From positions 434,001 through 498,000 of the forward strand of contig LLEY01000023.1 in NCBI GenBank assembly GCA_001414485.1: DNA of 64,000 bases. The letters are read 5' to 3'. The stretch is from Calycina herbarum. Its lineage: Eukaryota > Ascomycota > Leotiomycetes > Helotiales > Pezizellaceae. Within the stretch, counting starts at the first letter, position 1, and each line of letters begins with the position of its first letter. The translations under genes and the position numbers were made by a program. The notes beneath the pieces were generated by a model that was not told the origin of the DNA, did no database searches, and saw only the letters and a program-made list of their open reading frames with translations. Shown in pieces: positions 8,806 through 51,769 of the stretch.

Positions 8806-10053
8806 GATTGATCAGTTGGAGAGGGTGTGTTTTTATTGAATTGTTTTTGTTTTGGTATGAGAGGGTTTTGATATTGATGGAGCTTTGGTGAAAGGGGTTG
8901 ATCCCGGCATGTCCGGGCCGACTTTTTTCCATCTTCTAGACTATTGGGTGTCCTTGACTTCGAGTCCATCTACTGCTATCTACAATTCAAGATTATTCCT
9001 TTGATTTTGAGTAACTGTATCTGGTTATCTAATTGTTTATTTTCGTTTATTTCCGTTCAACGGTGTGCCTGAGAGAATCGTAAGCAGAATGACAACCACG
9101 GAGAAGAATGAAGTCAATTCTTGTCTCCAGGCGTGCATGTTGTCAAGTCGGGTTAGACTTTGTGCTCGAAGTCTTCAGGCTTGTGTCCGTTAAACTCTCG
9201 ATGGTCCCAAGTCCGTTGGTACAACTGGAATTCGAGAAGCAAGTGCTCCTCCCATCCCATGCTAGGCAGCTCACTTTTCGGTTTGAGTTTCCGAGTCGCC
9301 AATTCATCATCGGTCAGCTTTCTTTTTTGTAAATTGTTATTCTTGTCTTCTCGGAACGACGATTTTGGGGTTTCTAATCATGTTTTGTTGACGTTACAGA
9401 ATGTTTATGGCTTTTTTATGGAGGAGTAAAGTGACTCTTTTTTACATTTCCCAAAGAGCGAAATTATAGACACGATTTTTTACCTTCTTGTAAATTGATT
9501 CGCGTGAATTCATTTTCCTAAACATCTAGGTGGTTGAACATTTCTTTGGATCTCGTAACTTCGTTCTCCAAAAGCTATTCTCCGATATTCTTCAGGAAAA
9601 CTTTATTTTCTTGAGATATATCAGACGAAAATAAAGAAACCTTCCCAACCCTGTCTCTCGACTTCTTCACTTAATATTGAATTATTCAATTCTTGTTCGA
9701 GCATTGCATCTAGACCTGGACTGTATCCCACCGAGTGTTAGGGGCTGAAAAGTCTTTTTTCTTTCACCCCCCCAGCCACGGGATGTTGATGAAAGAAAAG
9801 CTTATCACCAAAAGCAGAAAGCAATTCAAATCACACAATCCTTCTATACAACAAAGAAAACCTCGTCAACCGAAAGCAGAACGCAACCCCAATCTTTACC
9901 TTCCAATCTACACAACAAAGAAGATTCAAGCAACAAAGACACGTATCCCAAATCTGAAATCAAATAATAATATACTTTCGAAAAATAAACAGACTACTAT
10001 TCGCACGACTACCATCATATTGGCAAGCGTAATAGCTGCCCACAACTGACAAA
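8806..10053. other. Intergenic region and 5' flank of the SAP-protein gene
   Basis: About 1.2 kb with no convincing coding frame; several short frames have biased composition and no family pattern. The last 250 bases are A/C-rich, as expected of a long 5' UTR before the ATG at 10054. Confidence 0.4.
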
Positions 10054-13028
10054 ATGAACACGAGAGGAAGAGGGGGTGGAGGTGGTGGACAAACACCCAA
10101 AGTAATAGTGCCTCCGAGAGGTGGTTTCGATTCTTTATCACTCGAAAAGCTTAAGGAAATTTGCAAAGAAAATAGCATCACTGGTTACTCCATAAGCAAG
10201 GATGCACTCGTGGAGAAGTTGGATACTTTAGCAAATGCTAGCTATAATGGCATGAATAAAGAACAGCTGAAGGTCGCACTCAGAAAACGTGAGCTTCACG
10301 TTTCAGGCAATAGATCTGAGCTCCTACGGCGATTATTGGACGATATACAAGAAGAAGAAGCAGGACTGCTCCAGTACCGCAGTCTTGACAACAGTGATCT
10401 CAAGGCAGCTTTGAGAGAGCGTGGTCTCCCTGGATCAGGCACTAAACAGGTGATGATGAAACGCCTAATGGATGACGACAAAGCAAATGCTGCTAGATCT
10501 GCTGCCCAAGGACAAGGCCAGGGTGGAGGGAGCCAACCTACTCAAAATACTACGACTGGCCAGCATACTTTAGGTGGAGGACAACCTACTAGACCTGGGG
10601 GAAGCCAATTACTTCAGGTGGGAGACCACCTACCAGCCCGGATACTATGACTGGCCAATCTACTACAATTAGAAATCGAAATCCTCCAGATCGGAGCCAA
10701 CCTACCCAATCTATTGTGACTGGCCAACCCACTTCAGGTGGGAGACCAGCCACTGGACCTGGGGGAATCCTGCCCACTAGAAATCCAACACTAGGCGAGA
10801 GACCACCTATTAGACCTGTGAGCTCGACTACTGGAAATCGAGGTGGAAGCCAAGCAACCAGACCTGCGAGTACCATCAGAGAATCAATTTCGGTTCCAGA
10901 TTTAGAAGCCGAAGAACAGGAATATGCTAGGATGGACAACGCGGAATTAATTCAAGAATGCCAAAACAGGAGGATCGATCCTTCAAGAAAAAAAAGGAAG
11001 TTTCTCGTAGCTTTAATAATACAAGACAAACTTAGAAGGGGAGAGATTAGACAGTCAACAAATCCAAAAAAGCGAAAAAGAGAAGAACCGAAAGAACCTG
11101 ATGAGAGTTGGGATAAGAGGAGTACTATCGGGATCAAACTTGAACTGAAAGAATTAGGCCTCGATAGAGAGGGCACAAGAGAAGCCCTGGTTGATGTCCT
11201 AAAGTCTCAAGGGGTTGGGACCTTGGTGGATGAGGAGTTGGAAAATGAGGAGTTGGACAGATATGCCGGGTGGCATCGTGACAAGTTACTGCAGGAATGC
11301 CAAAGGCGTGGCCTCTCTGCTACTAGTGCTTTTGCGTCAAAGGCGGCTCTCGTAGCATTAATAGTAGAACACAGACGTGTGACGGGAGAGTTCAAGGAAG
11401 AAATTACACGGGAAAGGACTCAAAATGGAAGACAAACTAACAAACCGTGGACTCGCAATTCTGGAAATCAGACAACTACCCAAGCTGGGAGTAGCAGAAC
11501 TGGAAACCAACCCACTACTCAAGCTGCGAGTAACAGAGCTGGGAACCAACCCAGCAAAGCGAGAAGCCAAAACACTAAAAGTGGAACCCCCCCCCAAGAA
11601 GCAATAATTATTCCTTCGGATTCAGATGAAAATACTCAAGCTAGAAATCCCACCCAAGAACAGACAGATGATGAGTGGGAATACGATTCAGAGATTGGAG
11701 GGACCGAGGATGAGGTTAGACAAAGATACTCGGCGATGTTTGACGAAGGACTGGAGAATGGATGCATCATGCGTAAACTCGATCTTGGTAATAAAAGCCG
11801 CGAATGGCTCATAAAGCAAATGTGGGACTACAAATTTAGAAAGAAGACTGGAAAACGCCCCAGATATGTTAGTGATCCCGATACAGAGGATGAACTCATT
11901 GGGCCTGTATCACCACTCCAAGTAATAGTGGATGATTCCATTTCAGATAATGGAGCGGAGACTAGGGAAGTGGCTTCAAACAAATATATGACGTGGGGTC
12001 AGGTAGAACTACTGAGAGAATGCAAAAAACGTGGTATTGGATCCGAACTTAGCAAAGAAACGCGAAAGACAACGCTCGTAACCAAGATATTAGAGCATCA
12101 AAGTGGAAATGGAGAGTTTAAAGGGACGCAAGAAAGGATAAAGAAAAAAGCTTTTGTTTGGGGTAAACTTGAACTCGCCGAGCTTAGAAGTATACTAGGA
12201 ACTAGGCACGTCGATCAATCGGGCAACAAGGATGAACTGATCGCTCGCCTGAAAAGTATTTACCTGAGCGGGTCAAAAGGAAACGAACTTATTACAGGCA
12301 GAATGACCGATGAGCAAATCCGGGATGCTCTTGAAGAAAGATGGGAAATGACTAGTGGTGACCGTCAGGTGATGATAGAGCGCCTTAAAAACTGCGAATG
12401 GACGCCAGAAAATCCAAAACCCAAGGCAAAAACGCTTCCAAATGGCAGAGTCAGATACACTTATAAAAGAGAACAACCTCAACTGGAAATCAATACTTAC
12501 GATGTTGAAAGATATGAATGGATATATCAACCGAATAAACAAACTGATATTCATGACCCTTGGTTCCCGGAATATTATCTTGAACGCTTAGATGCTCCCA
12601 AACCTACCAAGCCCCCCAAAAGAGCACCACCCCAAATGGATACAGGGCCAGGACCACCGGGTCACCTATGGAGATTCTCGAAAAATGACACAGAAATACC
12701 GAAGCTAGAGCCAGACCCCTCCGTAAAACGAAAATTACCAAGACCGAAAGCGGGAACATACGATCCGCCTTACGGCTATGTGTGGGACAGAGAAGAGGAT
12801 AATGGCAGATACAACCCTAACCCTAGCACAACAACCCTCAAAAAGAAAGTGGAGATACTTCTAGACAAAAGAGACCCTAGGTGGAAAGACCTACGCAGAT
12901 GCGAAGGAATTAGAACAGACGGTCATCAATGTGAGAGCAAAGAAAGGGGACCAGACAAAATGTTTTGTAGCAGACACGAGCTTCAAGCCCGTGCACTGCC
13001 ACCAGCAAAGTTACGGAAGCTAGGTTGA
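10054..13028 (+). CDS. Large multi-SAP-domain protein, read in two frames (short intron or frameshift)
   Basis: A frame from 10054 encodes a Gly-rich start, then three SAP-like helix-hairpin units (for example SLDNSDLKAALRERGLPGSG). A second frame, usable from about 10620 to 13028, carries at least five more (MDNAELIQECQNRRI, WHRDKLLQECQRRG, WGQVELLRECKKRG, KLELAELRSILG, MTDEQIRDALEERW) and ends with a Cys/His cluster CEGIRTDGHQCES...MFCSRH that could bind zinc. The two frames overlap inside a Gly/Pro/Thr/Gln repeat. A 44-bp intron (GTGGAG...TTCAG, about 10573-10616) would join them in frame; otherwise one base has been lost near 10609. SAP modules bind DNA or RNA. A nuclear, chromatin or RNA role is likely, but no specific orthologue is recognised. 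Confidence 0.7.
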
Positions 13029-14649: not shown

Positions 14650-17256
14650 ATGTTTGACTCGTCTATTCGGAAGGCGACCAAGATAAAAAGACGTAGAGGG
14701 GCATGCGAATCTTGTAAAGAGAGGAAACTGAGGTGCAATGGAGATAGACCATGTAGCACTTGCAAGGTAAAAAACCCACCATAATTTCGAGGAACGAGCT
14801 AATATCGCTTTGTGATAGAAAGCGGAATTGCATTGCGAATACAGGATATCAATTCGTAAAAAGCAAGGTACTATCTCGAGCAAGAAATATCTCTTTGAAG
14901 GAACACGAACTAAACAATATTTCCTCTTCCTCAGACAAAGTCACAATTAGTGCATTCTCTTCCAATCAAAAATACCACGAGTTTCCTTCAATAGTAGAGA
15001 GCCAACGAAGTCATCACGAGAGAAACAAGAGAAGCATCGACAGCGGAATTGCTGACTGCGAACATGGACCTAACAACCTCGCAAAACTTCTGTCTTCCAC
15101 CGCCGATATAAACCCGCCAATTACCCCTCTTCCACTCATGAGTGTGAGTATTTTGTACCAAATTCTGAAAAGACGAGCTTTGTACTAACTGAATAAGTTG
15201 AGCATGGTATTTCAGTCACGAAATGGTAACTTGAAAACTCACTAGGCAGAAACACTTGAACTGATATAAGCTAGCACTCGAAGCAGCATCAAGCAAAAGA
15301 TTCATTCCAACCAAGTCAATGCTGCATTCTTTCGAAACTCAAATTGAGCAGTCAGAATCAATACCGAAACACATCTCCGCGATTTTTAAGAAGTTAATTG
15401 CAAAATTGGAGAGACTGAAGAGTAGCGACAACTTCCAGAACAACGACTCAGCCTTTAGCGACTCAGAACAGCTAATGAGGCATCATATTGACGGTAAGTG
15501 TGTCAATTTCCGTCTTGGATGAAACATATGTTGACTAAAACTAGCATTTTTTGAACACTCTCATCTGTGAGTACTTTGTCCAGGTAACACTTGGGCTACC
15601 TGTTAATTCAGCTAGGCCCTCATCATTCCTTACTAGAGATAAAATCTGGAATATTTTGGCTTCATTTCAGGTCGACGGAAAAGAAATTAAACCCGAAGAA
15701 CAAGCTCTTTTGTGGAGCGTTGTTTCCCTCGGCTCACTTGATATGGTCAACTCGCGGAAATATTTCAATCTCGTGTCGGGCTTGATATGGGAACTTATTT
15801 CGGGGTCATCTTCAGTAACGAAAGTTCAAGTGAGTAATTTGGAATGCCTTATTTTTACCTGGAGAGTTCACTGACAACGCTAGGCTTTGGTAACGATGGT
15901 GAGGGAGATTCTCGCTTAAGTCTACCCTCGATTGCTGATATCTTTGAAGCTTCTATACTCCATTAACCATGAATCTTCTGAGTTGAATTTTCTCTTACTT
16001 TCCAACGCAATAAATATGAGCAGTTCACTCGATTTATTCTCAACGAAAAAAATTGATGCTCTCAAAATATCGAGTAACGAGAGAGATTGTCTTAAGAATC
16101 TTGTCTGGGTTCTTTGGTCGATAGAAAAGGTACTCTGTTTGAGACACGACCGACTTCCAGTAAGTTTACAGTTCTCAAGTGTCTCTCAACAACTAAACAT
16201 AGTCAGCTCCTACGGCATGATAATATTGATTTTGGCCCGACGAGTCTACATTTCGAGAAAACCCAAGGTCTTTGCGAGTACGCTCAAAACTGCTCTTTAA
16301 TTTTGTCATATTTCAAGTCTGGAGCCTCTGGTGTTGTTCCAGCTTTCTCCAAACAGGATTTGTTGTCGATGTTGCGAGACTGGAGGGATGCAACTAATCA
16401 ATCTTTCGGTCACAATTTTAACCTCTCCACACATGATTCAAAACTGAGCCTCGAAATATCTTTTGAATACCATGAGGCTATATTTGCACTTTTACAACCT
16501 TCAATTTTGTTATTCAATAGTGATCAACAAGCTTTCGAGATATCCACCAACGACCATTTGATCCTCTTTGAATCTGCCAGAGAGGTATTGACCCTTCTGG
16601 GTTCGCCCAACAATTCTCTTGTTCTCCGAAAGCAGTAAGAAATTCCTCACCCCCTTTTAAATTGTTCTCTGCAGCTAAAAATTATCATAGCTCGATGATT
16701 AATATTTCTGTGATAGCCTGGAGTATTATATTCATCGGCATGATTCAAGGCGAGGGGCAAGCGAGCGACATGGCACTTTTGACGATCGCTTCCGGGTTTT
16801 TTGCGCAACTGTCTCTTTCCAACCAAATGGATCCCGGTTTCCATGAGATCTCCGAGCTCGGGGCTTTCGCCATATCAGAATTTAAAAACATGGAGGTCAT
16901 TAGGAAGAATTTGGATGACGTTCTTGTTAGTCCGGATGATTTATTCTTGCCTCCCACACACCAAGAGGTAAGAAAAAGAATTTCCTGGCAAGTATCCTAG
17001 CCTCTACTTACAAAGGAAGGGACACTTGAACACAACGATCGACAATCCCGAAAAGCCTCAGCAAGAACCTTTCAAAGATTACCTCTCACAATCTTGGTTT
17101 CTCGAACTGGATTTCGGGGGTGAAATATGGAATTGTGATCCGATTCTTGATGTATCTTGGGATATGGATCCTGGTCATCTTTTGGAAAGCGTCAATCAAA
17201 TTACGGAGGAGAAGGAGGTCAAGAATGGCTTAGAAGACATGAAGACGAGTTGCTAG
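14650..17256 (+). CDS. Zn2Cys6 fungal transcription factor (putative RiPP-cluster regulator)
   Basis: Nine-exon model giving 681 residues: join(14650..14766,14823..15143,15271..15493,15612..15829,15884..15898,15950..16159,16207..16634,16691..16967,17020..17256). All junctions keep frame. The N-terminus is basic and holds the zinc cluster CESCKERKLRCNGDRPCSTC; the sixth Cys follows after the first intron with unusually short spacing. The middle matches the fungal-specific TF domain (ALLWSVVSLGSLD; then QALVTMLLYSINHESSELNF spread over a 15-bp mini-exon). Downstream helices fit the same domain. Weak points are the exon 2/3 junction and a skipped segment near 15550 that reads AFFEHSHL in another frame, resembling the YFEHxHP motif of the family. 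It lies next to the tyrosinase and UstYa-like genes, so it is a plausible pathway-specific activator. Confidence 0.75.
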
Positions 17257-17591
17257 AAAGGTCGAGCACGGCACGTGATGGGGTCGCTCGCAATGGCCAG
17301 TAAAAGCGGCAGTAAATCCACCGGCTCGTATCTACCTACCTCTCTCGTCATTCTGATTCTCTAGAGTAATTCATGGTAATTAATCTGGGTGAACGGAACA
17401 TTAACCTATGTGATTTAGGCCAATGAACTTCGATTATCCTAATTGTCTGCATAAGTCTCTACGAAGTTCTAACTCTAGAGGGTTAAAATAAGGAGACCGA
17501 GGTACCCTATTTGCACCGCTTTTATTGTCCACCAGGAGATGGGTAAGCCGAGTTACAGTCAAATGCTGAGCTGAAATTCAACTATTTTTTT
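17257..17591. other. Convergent spacer between TF and tyrosinase genes
   Basis: Short 3' flanks of two converging genes. Nothing coding is seen. Confidence 0.4.
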
Positions 17592-18924
17592 CTACAAAAT
17601 GACACCACCAGGGAACCCCGTTTCCATAGTTTGATAACAAAACAACCCTTTCTGAGTAGACAGCATGTGCAAAACCGGATGTCCATCCTGTCCCAAGCCA
17701 CCCATATCCAAGATATCTTCTTTCTTAGCCTCGAACCCAAACTTGTTAGGTCCGGAATACTCTTTCATTCTTGTTTCCTGGTCTTGTTGTTGCCAGATTG
17801 ACCACAAACGATCAATCTGGGCATGATGGAGGAAGAATAAGGGATCTAGCATTTGTTCATTAGCCATTATTTCCTGAGCGCGGGAAAGAGCTTTTGTGAG
17901 AAATACCATTCGTAGAAGAAATCCTGGGCATTTCCCCACCAATCCCATCATGGAGATGTTTATGTGGTCCATTCTCTATTCGTTCCCGGAATTCTGGGTA
18001 GGTTTTGGAGGTTTTGATAATATCGCCTATGATTTCGGGACTCCATTGATTGCTGTGCAGTTCTCCAAATAAAGCACTAGTTGAAAAATTTCGTTTCAGG
18101 CAATGCTGCGAGGGACCATTTGACGTGTAATTGAGGAGGATGTTGTTCAGTGGTCCTCCTTGTACGCAACCCGTTATCAAGGAGCTGTTTCCTCCGAATC
18201 CAATTTCTGGATGCCATATTGGAGATGCCAAAGGGTCTTCGGAATCTAGTGTCCAGTCCCAGTAGCTATTTCCTAGCGTTAGCTTTCAGTCGAAAAAAAT
18301 CTTATGGTGGGGAGGTATACGGCAATGAACCCTCATATTCACACTCATCGCGTAATGTTTGTTCGTAGATGAAAATGAAATATCGATGCCACGGGAGAGA
18401 TGCAGCTACATGATGGACTGAGTAAACTCGTTTCATATGTGCTACTGTGAAATCGTCGTAGAGACTAGTCGTCAAATTTAGTTTAGAGGGCTTGGTTGTG
18501 AGGCATTGGACTGCTTTAAGGTATGATTTTCTGGAGGGAATAGAGAGTTGGCGCCATTCTTGTCGGATGCTTGGGACTCCACCTGATGGATTTGATTAGT
18601 GACGTGTTCTACTTCCTTCGGGTTTTTGGCAACTTACAAGATGGTGTTTTCGATGAACCGGTGGTTCTTTACGAGTCAGCCATGGTGGAACATCCGGTAT
18701 ATTTATGCATTCACTCACGTTGATTTCTTCTTTGAATTCAGAAATGAAGCCACTCCCAGAAATACTACCAGCAGAAAAAGAAATATTCCTGTGGACACTA
18801 ACCACAATCGGTATTTTCGCTTCGAGTGCGACGCAAGAGAAGGCAAGTCGAACTCATCAAAAGGTTGCTTTTCGGAATCGAGAAGTACCTCATTTTCTAA
18901 ACTTTCGGTGTTATTCGCATCCAT
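17592..18924 (-). CDS. Membrane-anchored tyrosinase (UstQ-like copper oxidase)
   Basis: Five-exon model, complement(join(17592..17890,17940..18265,18321..18582,18638..18666,18719..18924)), 373 residues. The N-terminus is acidic, with a basic stop-transfer border and one transmembrane helix (around residues 40-63, LWLVSTGIFLFLLVVFLGVA). After it come CGVPSIRQEWRQLS and a CuA site (VHHVAASLPWHRYF, then EGSLPYWDWTLDSEDPL). The CuB site follows (HKHLHDGI, then DPLFFLHHAQIDRLWSIWQ). These are the six-His type-3 copper pattern of tyrosinases. Tyrosinases in ustiloxin, phomopsin and related clusters oxidise Tyr residues of the core peptide. The fourth intron (49 bp, GTGGGG...AAAAG) keeps frame but removes a GGEM segment that resembles a conserved GIGGDM motif, so that junction or a frameshift needs checking. 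It is divergent from the UstYa-like gene. Confidence 0.85.
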
Positions 18925-19293
18925 TGCCAGTGATGGTTGGCATTGTGTTTCAAAGGTGCCACGCAGAGAACGAGAGCACTTTCAAGTTGTGAAACTTTTA
19001 CAGGCTAGTCCAAGATTTAGGAGGTACCTTACTCATCATTCCAGCCCCAGATTCCGGTGTAACCGCATATCTCGGAACCGGACCTTGGATCATGATGCTG
19101 ATGATTTTGGTAATTCCGCTAAGCGAGCTCACCCCTTTTCCGACCGGCTCCGAGTGAATTCCGAAGCTTCGGCAGCAACTGAATTGGGAGGTGAGAAACA
19201 CATGACCAACATCAACCCAGAACTGGGCTCTCCAGATACTCCCAAAAGACTTGTAGAGTGACTCGTCTGTCTGTATTTCTCAACGGAAGCAAA
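18925..19293. promoter_or_regulatory. Divergent promoter of tyrosinase and UstYa-like genes
   Basis: A 369-bp spacer with the shared motif TCGGAACCG at 19072-19080 and a perfect 12-bp palindrome CCGAAGCTTCGG at 19161-19172. Other CCG/CGG-containing stretches lie near 19053 and 19139. Such CGG/CCG patterns are the usual targets of Zn2Cys6 factors, one of which is encoded nearby. A 67-codon minus-strand frame (18998-19201) crosses it but lacks coding character. Confidence 0.6.
19072..19080 (+). promoter_or_regulatory. Candidate cluster motif TCGGAACCG, copy 1
   Basis: Identical 9-mer also present twice in the promoter between the HxxHC-protein gene and the precursor gene. It has the CGG-N2-CCG form expected of a Zn2Cys6 operator (inference). 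Confidence 0.5.
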
Positions 19294-20300
19294 ATGACTC
19301 ATTACAACCTAAAGGAACGTCAACGCAAGGATCATATTTGGGAAGAGGAAAGCACGCCATTCATTTTAGAGAGAGACCTTCCCCCACAACCGTCTTGTAT
19401 CGCGAGATTGTCATCCAGCCCGATATTACCGTGGCTTCTCTTGATCCTCCTCGTATCCCTCAATGTTTTCTCACTCCTTACCTTAACGAAAGTAAACGTA
19501 TGGACGGCCACCGACTTCGGTATCTCTCCCTCTTCAGGAGTTGCGGATGAAAGTTCTAACAGACCTAGTTTCTGCACGACCCGCAATATCAAAGAAACTT
19601 GTCAAGTTCTCAAGTAGCCTCGATTTCGTGGATGAACATACCATCTTTCGAGTTTTCGATCCGGATGAGCCTGTGTATGTGGGAAATGGGACTGAAGTTG
19701 ACGGAAATTGGGAGAAGTTAATAAGCCGTATGCTTGCTCTGAGAATGCTTTGAAACGTACACTGACAGCACAAGCTGAGAAGAATGATGTCAAGATTACT
19801 CCCGATGAAGCAAAGTTTGTGGGAGGAAATCCTTGGGAGGGTCTTGAAATGGAGGATCACACCATTGAGTATTTTTCTCCAAGTTCTCCCAGAAAACCAT
19901 TGTGTCTGATAACAAAACTAGAATCGAATTGTTTCATTCTATTCACTGCCTAGTGAGTTTCGTCGTCCCTCGTTCCTCAACAGCTTCTCTTAGCTCACCA
20001 AAAATATAGAACACAATAAGAAAGCGAGTATACTCCCACATGTACCCCGAGATGCTCACGACAAACGCCCAAATACATGTTGGTAAGTTCCTCCCAGACC
20101 CGTACACATCATGATACTAAATGAATGAAATAGATCATTGCATAGAAGCATTGCGAGAATTAATTATGTGTGGTGGAAATATGACACCCATTCCTTTGAA
20201 ATGGTCTGAGAATGGAAAACGGATGAATCCTGACTTTGCAACTGTGCATGAGTGTCGAGATTTTGGAAAGTTGAAGGAATGGCTGGGAGAGAGGGGCTGA
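19294..20300 (+). CDS. UstYa/DUF3328-family RiPP oxidase-like protein
   Basis: Six-exon model, join(19294..19519,19563..19727,19769..19818,19893..19952,20010..20082,20134..20300), 246 residues. A polar N-terminus is followed by one transmembrane segment (LPWLLLILLVSLNVFSLLTL), the usual UstYa topology. Then come YVGNGTEVDGNWEKLI and ITPDEAKF, and two HxxHC motifs: LFHSIHCLNTIRKRVY and HVDHCIEALRELIMC, the family hallmark. UstYa-type proteins oxidatively cyclise core peptides in ustiloxin, asperipin and phomopsin pathways. The third intron (74 bp, GTGGGA...CCCAG) restores frame but deletes a segment, GGNPWEGL, that looks conserved. Alternatively an A has been lost in the AAAA run at 19893. It is transcribed divergently from the tyrosinase gene. 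Confidence 0.82.
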
Positions 20301-20741
20301 GAATGAAGCAGTAGCATGTAAGAGCCTTGGTGCTTAACGAGTTTGGGCAATTATTAGTATTATTCGAGAAAGTTTAGAACGATGAGACACTCGTCTACTC
20401 AATTTTCCGAACTAAGAATAGATAACATGATGTTGAGCAATTTTTTAGGTCTTTCGAGGCGTCTTTTTACCTCTGAAATATCGTGAGAGTGAGACTTGAT
20501 TTTACCACGAACAAGAAAATTGGAATCAATAAGATCAGAGGACGAAGACTTAGTCCCAATTATACTACCTATACCAGGATAAAAGAGTAATAAACTGCAA
20601 AAAGTAGTCAACATAATTTGTTTGGCTTACTTCTAATTATGTGGCTTACTCATGACTCTGTTTTGGCCCCCAAAACAACGAAAGTTACATCCGAACTAAC
20701 TCGAAACTTGGACATCCCCATCTCTCACACTCCCATACTTC
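20301..20741. other. Convergent spacer between the two HxxHC-motif genes
   Basis: 3' flanks of converging genes, AT-leaning, with no supported feature. Confidence 0.4.
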
Positions 20742-21581
20742 TCAACAACTATTCAACAAAGGCATAAGTCCCACACTAGTAAACTCATGCACCTTCTGCA
20801 TAACCTCCCCACAATGCCTCGTATGCTCAAAATTCAACATATGAGTAGTCATCCTCCACCCTCTCTGAGCAGCACGATGCATTCGTTCCCACACTACAAA
20901 ACATCAGTATGTTTCTTCCCCAAGTCCCCCCACAACACTCATTGGAGTGTCCACGAACCAAAACAAAAAGAGGTGGAGAGTACATACTCAAAGCACAATG
21001 ATTCTCATGAAACCCCGGCTCACTCCAAAAAACCTCCCTCGGTTCCTCCTCCGTAGCACTAGCCGCAATACGATCCAACCCCACTTCCCTCGTCATCTCT
21101 TTATCCTCCCAGAATTTCCACCCATGGGCTTCAAACTGTGTCATCAAATAAGGATCTTGACATTGAGGTGGTGTCCAACCTGAGGCTGACATGTCGAAAA
21201 TACAACCTAGGGAAAGAGCTTCGGTGCTGTTGTTTCCACAGGTATAGCGCGGTGGAAGTCCTTCGCCGTAGATACTGATTATAGCTTCTTGAGCGGAGAG
21301 GGTGGAAGATTCGGTTGCTTTTTGGTAGATGAATTGGAATGCTATGGTGAGGAGGAGGGTTAGAATTACGGTGGTTGTTATTTCGAGGAGGCGTTGGGTC
21401 TGGGATCTTTGTTTGCGGGTGTGGAGTTCTGATTGTGTTAGGAGGACTTTGCTTTCTTCGGGGTCGCAAGAGGTTTCTGATGAGTCGTCTCTGGATATGG
21501 CGGAATATTTTTGGAACGGGAGTTTGAAAAACTGGAATTTGTAAGTGAAGCCCCGGAAAGAAGTTAGGAATCACGAACCAT
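20742..21581 (-). CDS. Membrane protein with HxxHC and HTxHC motifs (uncharacterised fungal family, cluster member)
   Basis: Model complement(join(20742..20893,20988..21531,21579..21581)), 232 residues. The two main exons are well supported; the 5' end is not. It assumes a start-codon-only first exon before a 47-bp intron with a CTAAC branch point. A polar N-terminus precedes one transmembrane helix (LLEITTTVILTLLLTIAFQF). The lumenal part begins CGNNSTEALSLGCIFDMS, then GWTPPQC, FHENHCALMW and LNFEHTRHC. The C-terminal HxxHC/HTxHC pairing recalls UstYa proteins and belongs to a family common in fungi but, as far as I know, without an assigned reaction. Its position between the UstYa-like gene and the precursor, sharing a promoter with the latter, suggests a role in core-peptide modification (inference). 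Confidence 0.72.
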
Positions 21582-21851
21582 AGTTGCAGCCTAGAGCACT
21601 CCAGGCGAAGCAAGTCTCAAAGACGACAAGTTACAAAAGATGTGGGTGTGCAAATTCGTCGTGGACAAGGCTTGGTTTGGTGGTTAGCTGTAGCAAGGCT
21701 GTAGCAAGGACCAAAGACTTGCAACTGCAATGGAAAGCAAGTGCACAACTAACGTAGTTTGAGTTTACTTCGGATAACCAATTGTTGTAATTCATCTAAC
21801 GAAATACTAAATCCGAGATCAATCCCGATTCCGGGTGCTGGTGCTGTATTG

Positions 21852-21860
21852 CGGTTCCGA
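21852..21860 (-). promoter_or_regulatory. Candidate cluster motif TCGGAACCG, copy 2
   Basis: Reads CGGTTCCGA on the plus strand. Located between the HxxHC-protein and precursor genes. Confidence 0.45.
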
Positions 21861-22018
21861 ATGTTACATGTACTACCAGTTCCGAGAGTGCAATTCCGAA
21901 AACAGAAGACAATATTCCTTCAACCTTACTGCAAAGGTTTCGATGTTCATTGGGTATCTGTAATGCAGCAATGAACTTAATAACCGATTTGATTTCTCGC
22001 CAAAGATTTTTGAGGTGT

Positions 22019-22027
22019 TCGGAACCG
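22019..22027 (+). promoter_or_regulatory. Candidate cluster motif TCGGAACCG, copy 3
   Basis: About 205 bp upstream of the precursor ATG. The match to copy 1 extends by two bases (TCGGAACCGGA). Confidence 0.5.
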
Positions 22028-22231
22028 GAACTGAAGAGAACCAAGATCGTGATGTTTAAAAGCAAAGGCTCTTCATAGTAGAATGAAAAGTATACATTCA
22101 TCTCAAGCTCTCATACCCCAAACCACACCGCGCAAACAAAAGGTAGCACCCCAACCCCTTCATTTGAAAACAAAAGGCGGAATTTTGATCAAAACACAGC
22201 TCCTCCATCTCGAATTTCTCTCCATCTCAAA

Positions 22232-22564
22232 ATGAAGTTCAACATCGGCCTCCTCACAATGGCCCTCGCCATGGCCGTATCCGCAGCCCCAACCGCCAAC
22301 CCATCTCAACCCATCGACTTCGAAGCAAACCAAATCGCCGCACGCGAGAAAGCAGCCTACGCCTATGCACCTCAGGAGAAGCGCGAGAAAGCAGCTTACG
22401 CATATAAGCGGGAGAAGGCAGCATATGCGTATGCGCCAAACGAGAAGAGAGAGAAAGCCGCATATGCTTATGCACCTGTTGAGGAGAGAGAGGAGAAACG
22501 GGAGAAGGCTGCTTATGCTTATGCTCCTAATGAGAAGCGCGAGAAAGCTGCGTATGCGTATTGA
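22232..22564 (+). CDS. RiPP precursor peptide with six AAYAY cores and KR processing sites
   Basis: A single-exon, 110-residue protein. Residues 1-18 form a signal peptide (MKFNIGLLTMALAMAVSA|AP). A 20-residue pro-segment follows. From residue 39 the rest is a repeat: six AAYAY copies at 41-45, 54-58, 63-67, 76-80, 93-97 and 106-110, mostly in the frame EKAAYAYAPNEKR. Kex2-type KR sites lie at 50-51, 59-60, 72-73, 89-90 and 102-103. The protein ends exactly on the last AAYAY. There is no Cys and no alpha-pheromone-like Trp pattern. Signal peptide plus KR-separated identical short cores containing Tyr is the design of dikaritin precursors (UstA, PhomA) and other Kex2-processed repeat proteins. 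I know of no described product with an AAYAY core. Neighbouring tyrosinase and UstYa-like genes support the dikaritin reading. Confidence 0.88.
   Translation: MKFNIGLLTMALAMAVSAAPTANPSQPIDFEANQIAAREKAAYAYAPQEKREKAAYAYKREKAAYAYAPNEKREKAAYAYAPVEEREEKREKAAYAYAPNEKREKAAYAY
22346..22561 (+). repeat. In-frame tandem repeat encoding the AAYAY/KR units
   Basis: Six imperfect units of 27-51 bp. DNA divergence between units is mainly synonymous (GCC/GCA/GCT/GCG and TAC/TAT exchange), while the AAYAY core and the KR dipeptide are unchanged. This suggests selection on the encoded peptide. Confidence 0.85.
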
Positions 22565-22900: not shown

Positions 22901-23523
22901 ATGCCTACACCCGGAAAACGAAAGAGGGAGGCAGGAGAACTTGACGACCAATGCTCTCTTGACGGTGGGTGCTCAATCAAAATGAACTCGTTTAATACAA
23001 GATCGCTTACGGTGCTGTGGCTGGCAAACGGAGAAGTAAAGCTCTGAAGCTCACCCACCACAAGCGACCCGAGGACGAGCTCAGCGCAAGACTTGAAGAT
23101 ATTGAAATGAACTCCGGAGAGGAGGCAAGCTCGAACGAATCAGACAGCCTTTCAAGTCGGGCGGACACGGACAAAGATTCGATCAGAGTTGAACTAGGCT
23201 TGGACGAGGAAGAGGACGAAATGGCGGAAGATCCAACAGATCCAAGAGGAGCAAACATCCACATTGTCATGGTGCGAAAAGTTGAGGATAGGTTGAATGG
23301 AAACCCTACGCCTGCCATCGAGGGAGTTTTCAGCACGATCAAAGATGCGCAACAGAGAGCCAGGAATTACTGCGGGAAATGGTTGGAGCAAAATTACCCA
23401 GGGAAGAGGCACCGGGATGAAACCTATCGGATACATACATTTGGATGGGAATGTGGTCCTTTTGAGATTGAGATTAAGTCGGCTGTGGTGAAGGGTGCTA
23501 GTTCCGAACCTCGGGAGTATTAG
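22901..23523 (+). CDS. Hypothetical acidic protein
   Basis: Proposed join(22901..22964,23042..23523), 181 residues. The start MPTPGKRKREAGELDD is basic then acidic. After the intron (GTGGGT...TAAAG) come a Glu/Asp/Ser-rich segment and a more ordered C-terminal half (HIVMVRKVEDRLNGNPTPAI through RIHTFGWECGPFEIEIK) that looks like a small alpha/beta domain. I do not recognise the family. It is adjacent to the precursor gene but shares no RiPP-enzyme features and no copy of the cluster motif was seen before it. It may mark the edge of the cluster. Confidence 0.55.
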
Positions 23524-25214
23524 ATTGGGATCTGGCACGATGGACTGGAGCTGGCGGGTCGAGATTCAGGATAGGGAAATGTCGAAGAATGCCAAAACAG
23601 ATCCGCACGATACCGTTTATGTCACCTGGGTTCCGAGAATGTCGAGGCCCCATGGTCTTTTGCGCTTTTTGTCAGAGTCTAAACTTAGTTGAGATTCCTG
23701 TGGTGATTGTATTCGAACTGTTGCCTCATTAACTCAGCATGAGCCAATGTAAGCAGTTTGGACATTGGTTTTTGGCATCCCTTTTTATATATATGTTTCT
23801 GGAGAATCATAACTATTAATTAATTCGTAAGAAAGTTTAGGACAATTACTTTCTAAGTCTTCAAAATTAATTGTCCGAGAGCGGGTGACCGAGAGCAATG
23901 ACCAGGCGTCTTAGCTATGGGAATATTGAGAAATTTTTGATGTATTGCTTACTTGTTTCTATTTGTCCTTGCCAACTTCCCCAGGGTTTCCCTCAGTACT
24001 AAGTATATCAATCCCACAAAGTTATGTAAGGGGTTTTAGAACAAGGTAGGTTGTGTTGGGATGTGGATGAAGGAGAGAGGGGGCAACTCGTGGCTTTTTA
24101 TATGAGATGACCATTGTCCTTGGTCGTTCCTTCCTCGCGCAGAATATATGTGAGGAGGTTACCTAAGATGGGTAACGAGTTGGGGTGCTGGGCATGGGTC
24201 GTCCCTTCCTCATGGCTATTCTTTCCCGATGAACCGACCTTCTGGCTTACTCACTGGCTCCTGCCTTGTTTACATCGATTCTTTCCTGTACTCAGCGCTC
24301 TTCTGTTATATGAAAAAGAGGGGAGACGATTAGAATGGGTTCGGTCGTCCTTTCCTCGTAGCTGCGCTTTCTCGATGAGCCGACCACCTCCATGCTTCCA
24401 TTCACAATACCCATTAATGAATGGAGGTATCTTTGGCAGTATCAAGAGGGCTATGATGTATTGCTTGCTAGTTTCCATTTGCAAGAATCCCGGTCATCGT
24501 TCTGCGTACACCCATGGATGATGAAATCCCGGGACACTCAACTAACTCGGAAAAATCAATTGTTGTTTGTATTTCATGTTTACAAAGGTGTGGGTGATTG
24601 AAGTTTTCGGAGCAATGAGGTTGATAACGGGCAGAGTCTAGGTTCTTCGTCGTCGCAAATGGAAGAGAGTTGAGTCTGGGTCGTTCTTTCCACACCTCTC
24701 TTTCTCGAGAGCTGGCCACTAGGTGGGATAGGTAAACTTGCTCAATGGCTCTGTTCGTCCGTCAGAGGGGAAATGGGTTGGGTAGTTCTTTCCTCGCTGA
24801 CGCTTGAAAATGCCATCGTCAGTGCCGCTTTTGACTTCCTGGTGGCACGTGCTAGCTAGTCCCAAGCGGGAAAGGCTCGTTTGGAGAAAAAAGTGACTCG
24901 AGCTACAAAAACTTAAAAAGATCCCCTCCCCCCAAAACTCTCTCCAATACCAACCACAGACACACTTCTGTGGTCGCAATTGCAAATCGTAAGTTCAACC
25001 TCCCTCTCCTCTCTCAATTACTCCCTCGATATGATTACAAAACCGATCTGTCAATCCCCTGACACCAGATTTATCTGGACATGATGTCTAAAATATGTTT
25101 TAATTCATGATCATCGACCTCTTGTCACATCTGCATCAATCTTCAATCTTGCACTGATCAATGCTAATTAAAGATTCTTACAGAGCCATTCTCGAACCGA
25201 TCGCCATAAACACA
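23524..25214. other. Long intergenic region with a degenerate repeated motif
   Basis: 1.7 kb without a supported gene. Variants of GGGTCGTTCCTTCCTCG recur at about 24117, 24198, 24346, 24679 and 24781, each beginning a pyrimidine-rich segment; two are followed by GATGAACCGACC or GATGAGCCGACC. The last 300 bases are the 5' flank of SEN34 and may contain a 5'-UTR intron (a GTAAGT donor near 24989). Confidence 0.45.
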
Positions 25215-26141
25215 ATGGCGCAGTCATTAGAGACAATCACCGAACCCATTGCCATATCTTTGGTGTCAGGTCGTTACTTGCTATACGATATCAATGTCGT
25301 AACTTACCTTCGTAGGGCGCACAGTATCTGTGGTGTACTCATAGGCGGCATTCCCCAAGCACCTCAGCAAAACGTGTTTCAAGGCCTTCCTCTCGAGCTT
25401 CTTCCCGAGGAGGTCAAGCTCCTGATCGAAAAAGAAGCCGCATACATAGTCGACGACGTTGCATGGCACAAGGAGCGCTACAGCACATTACATGGCGAAG
25501 ACAGAAAGAGGTATTTGGGGTCCTTGAGGGAAGAAGGTCTGCGAATGAGCCAAGCGCAAGCTGCCGCCGCGCGACAAAAATCAGCCAAGGCTCTCGCGAA
25601 GCAAGCAATGCTAAAAGCAAGCAAGTCTTCTGGGAAGTCTAGTAGAGGCGACTCTTCTGCACCTGTTGTTACTGAGACGCCGAATGCTCAGGATTCTCTT
25701 TTTAGTGTTGACCGCCCTGCGTCCCCAGCGTTTTCTGAAGCTTCTTCCAAGATTTCTTCCTGGGAGCCCGCACCGCTCGCCATGACACCCAGTACATCAT
25801 ACTCTCCTTCCTCCTTGCCAGAAAATCCTGCCCCGCAGCCTGATCCTGTCGTCCCTGCTTCATACGCTCTATTTCGCTTTTTGCACAACAAAAAATACTT
25901 CATCATGCCGGGTCTTCGGTTTGGATGCAACTATAATGTGTACCCTGGTGATCCATTACGCTTTCACAGTCATTTTCTTGCTACCAGCTATGAGTGGAAC
26001 CAAGAAATCTCCATGCTTGATCTGGTCGGCGGGGGGCGATTGGGTACAGGAGTGAAGAAGGGGTTTCTCGTGGGTGGAGCAGACGAGGATTCGGATTCTG
26101 GGGATGTAAGAGCATTTACGCTTGAATGGGCAGGCATGTGA
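25215..26141 (+). CDS. SEN34: tRNA-splicing endonuclease catalytic subunit SEN34
   Basis: 308 residues from MAQSLETITE; an upstream in-frame Met 18 codons earlier is less likely. The N-terminal domain (ISLVSGRYLLYDINVVTYLR, GLPLELLPEEVKLLIEKEAA) precedes a Ser/Pro/Ala-rich linker. The C-terminal nuclease fold holds the expected catalytic triad region: Tyr243 in VYPGDPLRF, His251/His253 in FHSHF, Lys281 in GTGVKKGF. Sen34 cleaves the 3' splice site of intron-containing tRNAs as part of the Sen2-Sen34-Sen15-Sen54 complex. Single exon and normal length. Confidence 0.92.
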   Translation: MAQSLETITEPIAISLVSGRYLLYDINVVTYLRRAHSICGVLIGGIPQAPQQNVFQGLPLELLPEEVKLLIEKEAAYIVDDVAWHKERYSTLHGEDRKRYLGSLREEGLRMSQAQAAAARQKSAKALAKQAMLKASKSSGKSSRGDSSAPVVTETPNAQDSLFSVDRPASPAFSEASSKISSWEPAPLAMTPSTSYSPSSLPENPAPQPDPVVPASYALFRFLHNKKYFIMPGLRFGCNYNVYPGDPLRFHSHFLATSYEWNQEISMLDLVGGGRLGTGVKKGFLVGGADEDSDSGDVRAFTLEWAGM

Positions 26142-26611
26142 TTCTGAAAGTTAGGTAGCTCAATTAACTATTACCCAAACCAAGCTTTAATGTCTCGATT
26201 CTAGGTGCTGTACTGGTAAAAATGACTTAATGATGAGCTTAGTACTAATGATGACACTTTGATCCTACTATATCTTCACTCCATCTCACAAGGTCCTTAA
26301 AAGTGAAGTCACTTGTCTTGATTTACCTCGGAGCATTCGGGCCGACGCCGCTTCAGCATTGGACCTTGACCTGGTCGCGGGCACATATCAAGCAACCCTC
26401 ACTTCTAAACTTCTTTGTGACTACTTACAAACGCGCGCACAAGCCGCAATGCCAGTGGGGTCTTGCAGGAAACGGAGCTTCTGATCTTCTTTTATCATGG
26501 ACTTTTCCTTGTTTCAATAGCCTCTGCCTCTGCTCCCAGATCTTCAACAGCACGCCATATTCTTCCGCTCCTGCAGAAGTTGGAACGATCCGGGCTCGCC
26601 GCCTACAAACC
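26142..26611. other. Spacer and probable 5' UTR of the RING membrane protein gene
   Basis: The reading frame of the next gene is open back to 26303, but that stretch lacks the character of the downstream protein and is treated here as leader. No other feature. Confidence 0.4.
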
Positions 26612-29575
26612 ATGGCTGCAGCGTTCGACCACTCAGCCAGATTCGATCTGGGTTCTTGGACGGCAAACTGGACTGCCTTCAATGCTACACAATATATTCC
26701 ATCCGCCAAAGACCTCGCGCTGGCCGGTCCGCGGATGTTCATGAAACTTGGTTCCCTTCTCCCAGTCCCAGAAGCAGTCGATAACATATTTGGAGCACGA
26801 TTAGGTCAGAGAATCATACCAGAAGCCACCGGGGCGGGCAATCGAATAGTAGAAGCGATCACGACGGCCTCAGCATCTGCGAGAGAAGTGGCACAAGCAG
26901 CGACCGAGATAGTGGTGGAAGTCGACGAGGAAACAATCGGCCTTGCCTCGAGGTTCTCAATGGAGGGCGCAAGGAGTTTGGGAAATGTCTTTGGATATAT
27001 TACCAGCAAATGGGCCATACTTTGTTTCTTTATCGCTCTCGTCTTGAATCGATCCGGCATATATGCGTCAACGCGACGGAATCTCCTCCTTCCATGGAAG
27101 ATTCGTCTTCTAGTGAGAATCGTCCCCATAGTTCTGCTGGCCATGCAATCCCTCACTTTACTCCGATCTATAAAATGCCAGACCTCCCCAGATTTTGCCA
27201 TGCTACGTTGGGGGAATGCATCCAAGCACTCGGATTTGATGTTTACACAAGATGGAGGCTTTTTACATACCATGAGTTCAACATTATTATTCGGAGAAGC
27301 GGATGAGGCTTCCTGTCTGGCTGTGAATATGATACCACCGGATTACGAGGAACCCGAAGACAAATCCAAATCCGTTGCAGAAAGGCCCCGCGTTGTGTTG
27401 ACGGGATCCTTATCCCGTCTTTGGCCTCTATTCCAAACCTTTTGCTTGAGTCAAGTTGTTGAAACCATTTCTTGCGCTGTTCAGGGACGCCTGGTGGCTG
27501 CCGAGACAGGAATGACCATCTTTGAACACTCTTTAGCTTTTGCGGAAGCGGATGCTGCAATTGGGAATCAGTTGGGATTTGGTTCTTTTGGTGGCACAAA
27601 GATGGCGAAAGCCTGGACAAATTCCAGTTCTCCATCAGGTGGTGAAATACAGGAGATAGCCATTACCCGGAAAATGATCATGCAGCGAGTCAACACTGCC
27701 GCAGAAGTGCTGCTTGTTGGCTTTCTCTCCAGCATGAACCATCTTACCAGCCATATACTTGCCATTTTCAACATGCAAGGAAGAATGCGACTTGTCAATA
27801 CTGGATTTTGGGGCATGGCTTTCATGTCCGCTATCGCCTGGGGCTTATGGAGTTTTTCCATGGACGATCTGTCAAACCAGACTTTGCTGAGATTTCCAAC
27901 TGTCTGCATTGTGGGATTCATTCCTCACGTTGCCGTATTATGTGGTATTGTCTGCTGCATGGTGATATACGGAATTGCATTGATTCTGTCAGCATTGGCG
28001 CCACCCTCCCGCGATGGAATCACCCATGACTCTGACGATGACATTCCTCAAGATACATCTTTCTTCCGAAGGTTGAGAGATGCACACGAAAATATGCAAG
28101 CAAATGTCCCTCTATCTAGCATAAGAGTTTCGATGCACATGGACTTTTATACAGCACTACTGAAAACTGGCTTTAGCATAATGACGATGGCGGCCGAAGC
28201 CGTCTATCTGAATGAAAGCCGTGGTGTCAATGTGAAGGAGAGAACTTGGCTAGAAGATGATCGACTACGAGAAATCGAGGCTGTCGGTGCACAATGGCTT
28301 GGTCCAACTTTCAGGCTCCGCGACTCGGATCCAAGTATGGGTGGTGGGAACTTTTCAGATAGCATTGGTTTGGTGGCGGTGAAAGACCAGCCCAACGACA
28401 TGTTACGAGATTCATCCAGTGGATATGCGAGGGAAATGACGGCTCAGAAAAAGACTGGTATCAAAGGCCATGATCGAACAATGAGAGACGGTGTCGGGGC
28501 TACAGAGCGAAGTGGAAGATGGATAATGGCCTTGGAATTTTTCATGGGCATCAATCGATTATTGTTCAGTTGGTGGGCTTCCTTGGCTTTGAGAGGGATG
28601 GCTCGAGTGGGGATTCAAGCCCGACCGCATTTCCTTGTATGGCTTACTCAAAGACCCAAAACTAGTGCTACCAAGGAAACCCGTGCTGAACGTGGTGGTC
28701 GCCAGCCTATAAAGGAGTTCTTCGTCCTCGATATGGACGGCAACCCAACATTACCGAAAGACGACCATATCGATGTTGAGGCAGAGATGAGAAATCGACT
28801 GCGAAATAAACAAGGTTCTTGGGATGATGTCCAAGAGGATCTTCTAGGTTCACGGCTTTACAAATGGTTTATTGACAATGGTTGGTGGGGTGCTGATGAC
28901 AGCAGTGGAGATTTCAAAGGAAACGACGATGAAGATGATGATGATACTACAAGTGTAATCTCCTTTTCTACCACTGGCGACGAACAGGAATGGGAATCAG
29001 ATGATGATGGCCGACGGACACCAACTCAAAGATCTCCTCAGTTTTCCCGCGAATCTACACCTTTCACTGATACACCCCTCAACTCATCCGACCTTGCTCA
29101 ACTTCTCAACCCCCAAAATCCCGAACAACGCGGCGAAGCTACAGCTCTAGCCGCCCACCTCTCAAGCACCAACATCGTCACTCGCTCCCGCTTCAAATCC
29201 ATCGTCCAACGCGAACGCGCTAAAGTCCTCATGTCTACCCTCCACCGCCCCGCACACTTACATTTCACCCCTGGCGCAAAACTCACACCTGCCGAAGAAG
29301 AAAAACTCCTTGAACATCTTATCCTCTCCTCTCGCTCTTTCCGGGCATCCACGGGCTCGCAAGCTAATTCTTGGGCCCGAGGAGCATCCGGGATGGGTGA
29401 GAATGGACCGCAATGTGTGGTTTGCCAGACTAATCCAAGGAGTATCATTGTTTGGCCCTGTCGGTGTTTGAGCTTGTGCGATGATTGCCGGGTTACGCTT
29501 GCGATGAATAATTTTGATAAGTGTGTTTGTTGTCGGAGGGATGTGGCTAGCTTTAGTAGGATTTTCGTTCCTTGA
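26612..29575 (+). CDS. Multi-pass membrane RING E3 ligase, Asi1/Asi3-like
   Basis: 987 residues from MAAAFDHSARFD. The frame extends 103 codons further upstream, so an earlier start is possible. Several hydrophobic helices are visible (WAILCFFIALVLNRSGIY, LLVRIVPIVLLAMQSLTLL, TGFWGMAFMSAIAWGLWSF, and VCIVGFIPHVAVLCGIVCC within a longer stretch). The tail is long, acidic and Ser/Thr-rich. The C-terminus is a RING with CVVCQTNPRSIIVWPCRC at about residue 935, then CDDC and CVCC. This topology and the WPCRC...C-CC RING pattern match fungal Asi1/Asi3-type ligases, which in yeast act at the inner nuclear membrane in protein quality control. The substrate here is unknown. Confidence 0.8.
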   Translation: MAAAFDHSARFDLGSWTANWTAFNATQYIPSAKDLALAGPRMFMKLGSLLPVPEAVDNIFGARLGQRIIPEATGAGNRIVEAITTASASAREVAQAATEIVVEVDEETIGLASRFSMEGARSLGNVFGYITSKWAILCFFIALVLNRSGIYASTRRNLLLPWKIRLLVRIVPIVLLAMQSLTLLRSIKCQTSPDFAMLRWGNASKHSDLMFTQDGGFLHTMSSTLLFGEADEASCLAVNMIPPDYEEPEDKSKSVAERPRVVLTGSLSRLWPLFQTFCLSQVVETISCAVQGRLVAAETGMTIFEHSLAFAEADAAIGNQLGFGSFGGTKMAKAWTNSSSPSGGEIQEIAITRKMIMQRVNTAAEVLLVGFLSSMNHLTSHILAIFNMQGRMRLVNTGFWGMAFMSAIAWGLWSFSMDDLSNQTLLRFPTVCIVGFIPHVAVLCGIVCCMVIYGIALILSALAPPSRDGITHDSDDDIPQDTSFFRRLRDAHENMQANVPLSSIRVSMHMDFYTALLKTGFSIMTMAAEAVYLNESRGVNVKERTWLEDDRLREIEAVGAQWLGPTFRLRDSDPSMGGGNFSDSIGLVAVKDQPNDMLRDSSSGYAREMTAQKKTGIKGHDRTMRDGVGATERSGRWIMALEFFMGINRLLFSWWASLALRGMARVGIQARPHFLVWLTQRPKTSATKETRAERGGRQPIKEFFVLDMDGNPTLPKDDHIDVEAEMRNRLRNKQGSWDDVQEDLLGSRLYKWFIDNGWWGADDSSGDFKGNDDEDDDDTTSVISFSTTGDEQEWESDDDGRRTPTQRSPQFSRESTPFTDTPLNSSDLAQLLNPQNPEQRGEATALAAHLSSTNIVTRSRFKSIVQRERAKVLMSTLHRPAHLHFTPGAKLTPAEEEKLLEHLILSSRSFRASTGSQANSWARGASGMGENGPQCVVCQTNPRSIIVWPCRCLSLCDDCRVTLAMNNFDKCVCCRRDVASFSRIFVP

Positions 29576-38600: not shown

Positions 38601-40514
38601 AGGAAAGATCCAGCAGCTTTGGAAAGAATCCGTTCAGTCAAAACAGCTCGACCTTCGTCTTCATCAACTGGAAGTTTATCTATCCTGCTATCGATGAATG
38701 CTTTGATGTCTCTTGCTGTATCTCCAATCTGGATGTCTCGATGAAGCATCTTCTTACCAAGTTCAAGCATTCCACGTTCGATGGCCTGTGTCTTCCTACT
38801 TGTTACAAAGATTCGCAAGGGTATTGTTTCTCTATTAACCTTGGCGAGCATCGAAAATAACGATTGGACAGCCCTGCATTCATCTAGAGCATCGATAACC
38901 CAGAAATGTGGGTGCAATGGCTTTGAGAGTAAAATACCACCATGAAAAAGCCTTCGAAAAACAGCTCTTTCGTCGTGCTTTTCAAAGGTAACACCATCGG
39001 CTTCAAGAAGAATCAGTCTCCGTCGGATATCAGCATTCTTGAGAGCCATCTGGTAAGCAATGGAGCGCAAAAGTTCGCTGACGGTGGATTTGTTTTCAGC
39101 GCCGTGTTTGAAGAAGAAGTAGCTGCAATCTAGATTATGTTCCTCGACGCATCTGATAACGTGGCTAGCGAGGACAGATTTCCCTGACGCGGGATTTCCT
39201 GTAAGCCAGAAGACTGGTGGCGCATCTATGTAGCCGTTCTTCCAGGATTCAAATTCACGTTCCGAGGTGAACCACTCACAAGAGTTTGGCAACTTTTTCT
39301 CTTCAAGGTTGACTAGATCATCCTCCGGTAGACTCGAGACTCCAAGAAAAGATCTGAGAAGATTGAGGTCGTGTTTGGAGGCCTCCTTTTGAGACTCGAG
39401 AACTACAAAACGTCAGCAAAATCAACCGCCCATTTTCAAAACATGAAATGAAAACTCAGGGAGCACTAACCTTCTGAGACGATCATGTCCACTGTAGTGG
39501 TAAAGGCATTTCGTAATGTCTTGTAATTTGGGTCAGAAGGAGTGTCGAATTTTACCATGCCGCGATGATTGGCATTTAGAAGAGCAACTCTCTCGTTCGA
39601 GTATCCAAGTATAGCTGAACTTTTATCAACGATCATTGCATCTGACACGAGAATGCTGCTTTTTAGTGTTTCGTAAAAAGACCAAAGCTGCAGAGCATCC
39701 GCATAATGCCGGAAGGTATCATTGATTGATGATATCAAGCTCGAATTCCTCTCAAGATCATTGACAAACGGCTTCTTCCCGTATGAGATTTTGAGAATGT
39801 TGGTCAGCGTTTTGGCCAAGTCAGAGCCTCGATGAGGTGTCGCTAGAAAAAACATTGTGTGGAAACGACTCGCCAAATCCCGAAAAGCAACGTCTTGACG
39901 AGCCAAGATGTAAGCCTATGTGATGTCAGTAGGTAGATAATGGACACAGGATCCGCCCAATTTATTCTACCTTTTTCATCACTATACCCCCCATGCTGTG
40001 CCCAATCAATACGATCGATGTGTTGCTCCGTCTAATATCCGGGTTATCCTTTATGTCGCCCAGAAGGGAGCGAGCAAAATCGCGGACATCTAGTACGCTA
40101 TCCTGTTTTTCTCCCCAGTCCGCCTTATAACCGAATGCATGAATTCTGACATGCTTAAAATCAGGGTCTCTAGGTAGCCACTCTTTTGGCCAGTAGTGGT
40201 ATAAATTGTTGCTTTTTGACCATGTCTTTCTGCTTCCCCCACCAAGCCCATGGACGAAGACGAAATCCACCAATGGTTCCGAGGGTGCATATAGAAGAGT
40301 TAAGCCGAGCGATCCTTTGTTGTCCGTAGTGGACTCCTTGAACTCGGTAGATGGTGTGGAGTTTGTGGATGTCCGTTGTATCGACAAGCCGCTGAGGGCC
40401 TTTTCAAGGTATTTGATTCCACTTTCCGCAGAGGACCGCCGCCGAAACTGCGTACATAAAAGTTAGCCCATAAGAAATGCTACTTGAATGCATCTGGTAT
40501 CTCACCTGCTCCAT
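35657..40514 (-). CDS. NOD-like receptor: SesB-like hydrolase, NACHT NTPase and WD40 repeats
   Basis: Four exons, complement(join(35657..39402,39471..39915,39971..40447,40506..40514)), 1558 residues; the first exon is only ATG GAG CAG. The N-terminal domain is an alpha/beta hydrolase of the SesB/DUF676 type: DFVFVHGLGGG, GHSMGGIV (Ser elbow) and FLATPHRGSDL. The NACHT module follows with Walker A GNPASGKS, Walker B FWVIDALDEC and a TSRKT sensor-like segment. The C-terminal 700 residues hold WD40-like blades (for example FGSRDKIIASSGFRKIRVWD). This is a standard fungal NLR architecture linked to non-self recognition and programmed cell death. The blades are diverged rather than the near-identical repeats of HET-like NLRs. 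Confidence 0.9.
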
Positions 40515-51305: not shown

Positions 51306-51769
51306 TGTTATAAACTATAGTTATATAGTAAGTAGTTTAGATAGTATTCTAATAAGATAAGATATAATATCTAGGAATAGAAGGTAATATAGAAGAAAGT
51401 TAGTAATATAAAAGGTATTTAAGAATTTTAGAATCTTACTATCATAATACTATTAGAAGTCACGTGTAGTTATATAACGTAATCACCTATATTACTCTAG
51501 TCGTCTTAATCGCGAGCGACGTAAGTAATATAAGCGATATAAGTAATATACTTAGAGAATAAAGGTTTTATATAAGACTAGTATAACTACTATTAAATAG
51601 AAGCTTCGTACTTAACTTTAGTTATTAATCTTATTATCTTATTTAATATCTTTAATATAAGTAATAAGTTCACTTCTAAGTAAATAAGCCGGTGTATCTA
51701 TACTTCTTACTTATATACTAACCTTTGAGACTTAGTTACCTTTGTTTAGTTCGTTTAAGTTTCGTTATA
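51306..51769 (+). repeat. 3' LTR of the Gypsy element
   Basis: Starts TGTTATAAACT and aligns with the 5' LTR, but C-to-T and G-to-A changes are widespread. Confidence 0.85.

Follow-up and report, generated by a model that had tools for sequence, protein, structure and literature searches.

Dikaritins are fungal ribosomally synthesised and post-translationally modified peptides (RiPPs) of which five only had been reported by 2022, with UstYa neighbours at 22% of the genes encoding Kex2-processed repeat proteins (KEPs) (PMC10512285). Ustiloxin and phomopsin combine a Kex2-type repeat precursor and UstYa/DUF3328 oxidases with a tyrosinase that is indispensable for cyclisation (PMC7329392), the ustiloxin ring being introduced by tyrosinase, UstYa and UstYb together, as repeated in a lichen survey that also cites a double HxxHC motif as the mark of RiPP-related DUF3328 proteins (PMC12048977). 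The DUF3328 enzyme CctR is described as a membrane-associated dimer that uses dioxygen and whose HxxHC(x)nHxxHC signature binds two coppers per monomer (PMC12435403). Here, we analysed a window of 64,000 nucleotides from Calycina herbarum (assembly GCA_001414485.1, contig LLEY01000023.1, positions 434,001 to 498,000 of the forward strand), in which a five-gene block (14650–22564; coordinates are those of the window unless another locus is named) is, by analogy with these systems, very probably a compact dikaritin-type RiPP cluster, whose tyrosinase, UstYa protein and Pfam-invisible UstYa-like partner (gene 4) would cross-link Tyr-Ala-Tyr peptides.

The core of the present precursor differs from those of ustiloxin and phomopsin as well as from that of asperipin-2a, and the tailoring enzymes present in the ustiloxin and phomopsin clusters have no counterpart recognised here. 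The dikaritin class features are nevertheless encoded together, namely a UstYa/DUF3328 oxidase, a precursor with KR-separated repeated cores and a tyrosinase, the latter as in ustiloxin and phomopsin but not in all dikaritins. By all class features checked from its sequence, the cluster is thus dikaritin-type, new in its core and enzyme set and known in kind. Unlike ustiloxin and phomopsin, it packs five genes into 8 kb, with the tyrosinase three genes from the precursor instead of 7 or 8, and holds one UstYa gene and a Pfam-less HxxHC protein where those clusters encode 2 and 5 DUF3328 proteins, respectively (PMC7329392). The asperipin-2a cluster likewise joins a repeat precursor whose core contains Tyr to just one DUF3328 protein (PMC7329392); the present cluster adds the tyrosinase and the gene-4 protein. 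In common with KEPs in general, its precursor displays a predicted signal peptide and near-identical repeats separated by KR.

An earlier note on this DNA, made from the letters alone, had described five adjacent genes, and open frames combined with hand splicing over GT-AG introns recovered all of them where it had placed them, in the order regulator (+), tyrosinase (−), UstYa (+), gene 4 (−) and precursor (+). The host genome (68.8 Mb in 379 contigs), whose genes carry introns, was searched for relatives of these genes. The regulator (14650–17256, plus strand; exon 1 14650–14766, exon 2 from 14819) was profiled through its spliced N-terminus, which matched Zn_clus (PF00172, E 1.1e-10) as predicted for a Zn2Cys6 factor; its frames remain open to about 17256, and its later exon borders and its end are approximate. 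The 369-amino-acid tyrosinase (17592–18924, minus strand; exons 18924–18719, 18666–18638, 18582–18321, 18265–17907 and 17845–17592) matched PF00264 after splicing (E 1.6e-39), and the 50 distinct PDB sequences that it matched are tyrosinases, catechol oxidases, hemocyanins and their relatives. Its histidines at 127, 135/136 and 144 presumably form the CuA site, and those at 267, 271 and 292/293 the CuB site. The UstYa/DUF3328 oxidase (250 amino acids; 19294–20300, plus strand; exons 19294–19491, 19538–19727, 19775–19868, 19922–19952, 20010–20082 and 20134–20300) matched PF11807 with E 2e-32 and 113.3 bits (cut-off 25), and its two expected HxxHC motifs read FHSIHC and HVDHC. The DUF3328 and tyrosinase profiles, which the earlier note had proposed as a check, therefore recognised both key enzymes. 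Furthermore, a crude hydropathy analysis revealed one N-terminal hydrophobic segment in each of the tyrosinase, UstYa and gene-4 proteins, as would be expected if these enzymes are anchored in the secretory pathway and face a precursor that is secreted.

The precursor (22232–22564, plus strand) is a single unspliced frame of 110 amino acids, with an N-terminus called signal-like from crude hydropathy only, followed by six EKAAYAY(AP) units. The six AAYAY repeats previously described are all present, whereas their KR flanks are partial: KR precedes five of the six units (the first is preceded by ARE) and follows five of six (the last closes the protein), and AAYAYAP occurs in four. A protein search of the whole genome returned a single match for the precursor. 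Apart from the window's own entry, the only database relative listed at E ≤ 10 was HYALB_00010051 of Hymenoscyphus albidus, a partial protein whose four units read AAYAY three times and AAYTY once. Its locus tag is directly followed by that of a gene-4 relative, HYALB_00010052, linking the precursor to gene 4 in more than one species. In agreement with the earlier note, which knew of no characterised product with this core, our literature searches gave no described product with an AAYAY core, and no fungal paper with the string AAYAY was met among 24 listed papers, judged by title.

Gene 4 (20742–21581, minus strand; exons 21581–21579, 21531–20988 and 20893–20742) encodes a spliced protein of 232 amino acids, in which the HxxHC/HTxHC pair announced for a second membrane protein was found as HENHC and HTRHC. 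Six database relatives were identified, the best named ones coming from Hymenoscyphus fraxineus and H. albidus (67% and 61% identity, respectively). Together with the Drepanopeziza and Phialocephala relatives of UstYa, they fit a helotialean ascomycete. Within the genome, four protein queries (one at E ≤ 1, three at E ≤ 0.001), with neighbouring exons joined and genes counted by hand, revealed a family of 14 genes (gene 4 and 13 paralogues) at seven loci: the window (C146, one gene), C180 (three), C334 (one), C42 (one), C329 (three), C212 (two) and C51 (three). We aligned 14 proteins, comprising five of the six database relatives (the truncated P0004 was omitted) and nine of the 13 paralogues, chosen for having a single long open frame. 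Among the columns invariant in all 14 are both HxxHC motifs and another four cysteines. As in CctR and other DUF3328 copper enzymes (PMC12435403), the family shows an N-terminal tail, one membrane helix and an HxxHC(x)nHxxHC signature on helices, judging from its motif and a predicted model; unlike them, gene 4 lacks a Pfam match, the family holds three invariant cysteines ahead of the motif, and its profile similarity to UstYa is weak. Two sub-threshold UstYa matches were obtained among the five paralogues scanned against Pfam (E 0.3 over the motif region and E 0.21 over the N-terminal part), and hhalign of the family against a UstYa set gave a probability of 58% (E 1e-4) over 46 columns around the motif only, with the short motif dominating. 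This is suggestive of a possible remote relationship to UstYa but falls short of proving homology, and the UstYa structure model (predicted local distance difference test 46) was too poor for a fold comparison with gene 4.

The co-occurrence of these genes extends beyond the window. PF11807 gave at least 71 exon matches at no fewer than 37 loci of the genome, and UstYa lies within 6 kb of five of the seven gene-4 loci, that is four of six besides the window (C180, C334, C329 and C212), with a binomial probability of 3.9e-8 under random placement; the 6 kb limit was chosen after the data had been seen, and the null ignores the general clustering of secondary-metabolism genes. We then considered repeat precursors in the window and 21 chosen loci (L022–L042; 272 kb in total). 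A first, looser detector of KR-separated repeats gave 10 rows, four of which were spurious by eye and were removed by a tighter rule; the tightened version detected six precursors (window, C180, C334, C329, C212 and C250), while 5.44 Mb of order-2 Markov sequence yielded none, the control being run on this version only, so the repeats exceed chance expectation. A repeat precursor was present at all five loci carrying both the gene-4 family and UstYa; none was found in the 20 kb read at the gene-4 loci lacking UstYa (C42 and C51), and one of the five UstYa loci read that lack gene 4 carried a precursor (C250, with three UstYa genes by reading of the matches). These loci were chosen and cover 10 of the 37 UstYa loci, so that these counts are not genome-wide frequencies.

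The repeats themselves are contrasted. C180 encodes six ETAYPKEKVL units separated by KR (G000:C180:31927-32214, L022:1927-2214, minus strand), and C329 encodes four AAYPVIEEDIVAK-type units (G000:C329:250866-251303, L027:866-1303, plus strand). Each of the two has three members of the gene-4 family nearby, together with one UstYa match and a Zn2Cys6 regulator frame at C180, and with UstYa matches and a short-chain dehydrogenase frame at C329. At C334, AWKASYI-type units spread over several frames (about 114687–115400 of G000:C334, L024, minus strand), likely with introns between the repeats, beside one gene-4 member and UstYa. C212 holds twelve exact DIESIR units (G000:C212:174429-174836, L029:2429-2836, plus strand), and C250 six QAYGQHTDD units (G000:C250:17465-18055, L036:7465-8055, minus strand), in a neighbourhood that has several UstYa matches but none to gene 4. 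Signal-like starts are visible in the C329 and C250 precursors and near those of C180, C334 and C212. At another locus (G000:C46:157129-161879, L042), a UstYa match and a tyrosinase lie about 3.7 kb apart, with no repeat precursor detected in the 10 kb read.

The genes recognised around the cluster, encoding a SAP-domain protein (10036–13025), a tRNA intron endonuclease (25158–26138) and a RING protein (26255–29572), look like housekeeping genes. A small frame without Pfam match between the precursor and the endonuclease (22996–23520) may belong to the cluster. Further away, a large open frame on the minus strand (35660–39412) matches NPHP3_N, winged-helix and WD40 domains, a protein type linked to fungal incompatibility, and two successive 4 kb bins (44001–52000) have a G+C content of ~24%, against ~45% immediately before, perhaps reflecting mutated repeats.

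Taken together, the profile matches of the regulator, UstYa and tyrosinase, the anatomy of the precursor and the synonymous divergence between its identical cores, the conservation of the core in H. albidus, the trio of precursor, UstYa and gene-4 family at four other loci and the housekeeping-like flanks support the dikaritin-type reading that the earlier note had proposed. Two published findings add to this support: CctR depends on copper through HxxHC(x)nHxxHC (PMC12435403), and among the 1758 of 7878 KEP genes with DUF3328 neighbours, tyrosinase genes peak at a distance of two genes (PMC7329392). Several observations weigh against it. Peptidase, methyltransferase and transporter genes were not recognised in the cluster, leaving later steps unaccounted for. 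Gene 4 matched no Pfam family at E ≤ 1 and thus failed the PF11807 test, so the UstYa label stood for only one of the two membrane proteins, in keeping with the more cautious wording the earlier note had used for gene 4. The two UstYa relatives listed, from Drepanopeziza brunnea (52% identity) and Phialocephala subalpina (60%), include none from Hymenoscyphus, and the five-gene set is therefore known from the present genome only. In addition, aromatic residues are absent from the C212 repeat despite the UstYa and gene-4 members nearby, and a Tyr cross-link leaves this unexplained. Finally, tyrosinase genes show no significant accumulation across all KEP genes (341 counts, 4.3% of 7878; PMC7329392).

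Of the 7878 KEP genes, 6120 have no DUF3328 neighbours (PMC7329392), which lends some credit to the idea that the precursor releases linear, secreted signalling or pheromone-like peptides while the neighbouring oxidases act on another substrate. Such an arrangement is nonetheless improbable, given the tight block formed by the precursor with UstYa and tyrosinase, the Tyr-bearing core maintained in a second species and the recurrence of the trio described above. Still more improbable would be a silent or decaying cluster yielding no product today: the four fully checked frames are intact (UstYa, tyrosinase and gene 4 after splicing, and the precursor), and the repeat cores are identical despite synonymous divergence, with 53 synonymous differences summed across the 15 pairs of the six KAAYAY copies, the zero non-synonymous changes following by construction from the choice of units by exact match. 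The same limit applies to the synonymous counts at C180, C329, C212 and C250; on reading the window's precursor protein, no degenerate AAYAY-like unit was seen.

Under the dikaritin-type reading, the Zn2Cys6 factor would switch the cluster on and the predicted signal peptide would take the precursor into the secretory pathway, where Kex2 would cleave after KR and free the EKAAYAY(AP...) units. On the model of ustiloxin, phomopsin and asperipin, the tyrosinase, UstYa and the gene-4 protein would act on these units as three membrane-anchored, lumen-facing oxidases with bound copper; they would oxidise both tyrosines of the Tyr-Ala-Tyr core and cross-link them, which would probably close a small ring. 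The likeliest chemistries are a Tyr-Tyr link or a link from Tyr to an alanine carbon, between which the sequence does not choose. Gene 4 would most likely be a UstYa-like binuclear copper enzyme or a UstYa partner, filling the place of the second UstYa of ustiloxin.

We give about even weight to the broader proposal that the gene-4 family is an unrecognised sister family of UstYa/DUF3328, composed of membrane-anchored binuclear-copper peptide oxidases that are invisible to Pfam and pair with UstYa on Kex2-released repeat peptides. The failure of gene 4 against the UstYa profile could also point to an accessory protein that donates copper or electrons, or that serves UstYa or tyrosinase as a scaffold, and an accessory protein delivering electrons or Cu(I) has been hypothesised for CctR (PMC12435403). 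This role, which can coexist with a dikaritin-type cluster, appears rather unlikely for gene 4: the invariance of both HxxHC motifs in the aligned members is expected of a catalytic binuclear copper site, although a donor might need them too, and the presence of two or three divergent copies at some single loci is easier to reconcile with substrate-specific enzymes than with a lone generic donor, a weak argument.

The product of the cluster is probably, by analogy, a small oxidatively cross-linked peptide derived from a secreted precursor with six repeats; the small size of the cluster makes it tractable, with a very simple core. Its most interesting part is the recurrent Pfam-less HxxHC membrane family, which could join mining rules and be tested as a new class of copper enzymes. 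If this family does represent a sister of UstYa, mining by DUF3328 alone overlooks its oxidases and the five loci of this genome would each yield a different modified peptide.

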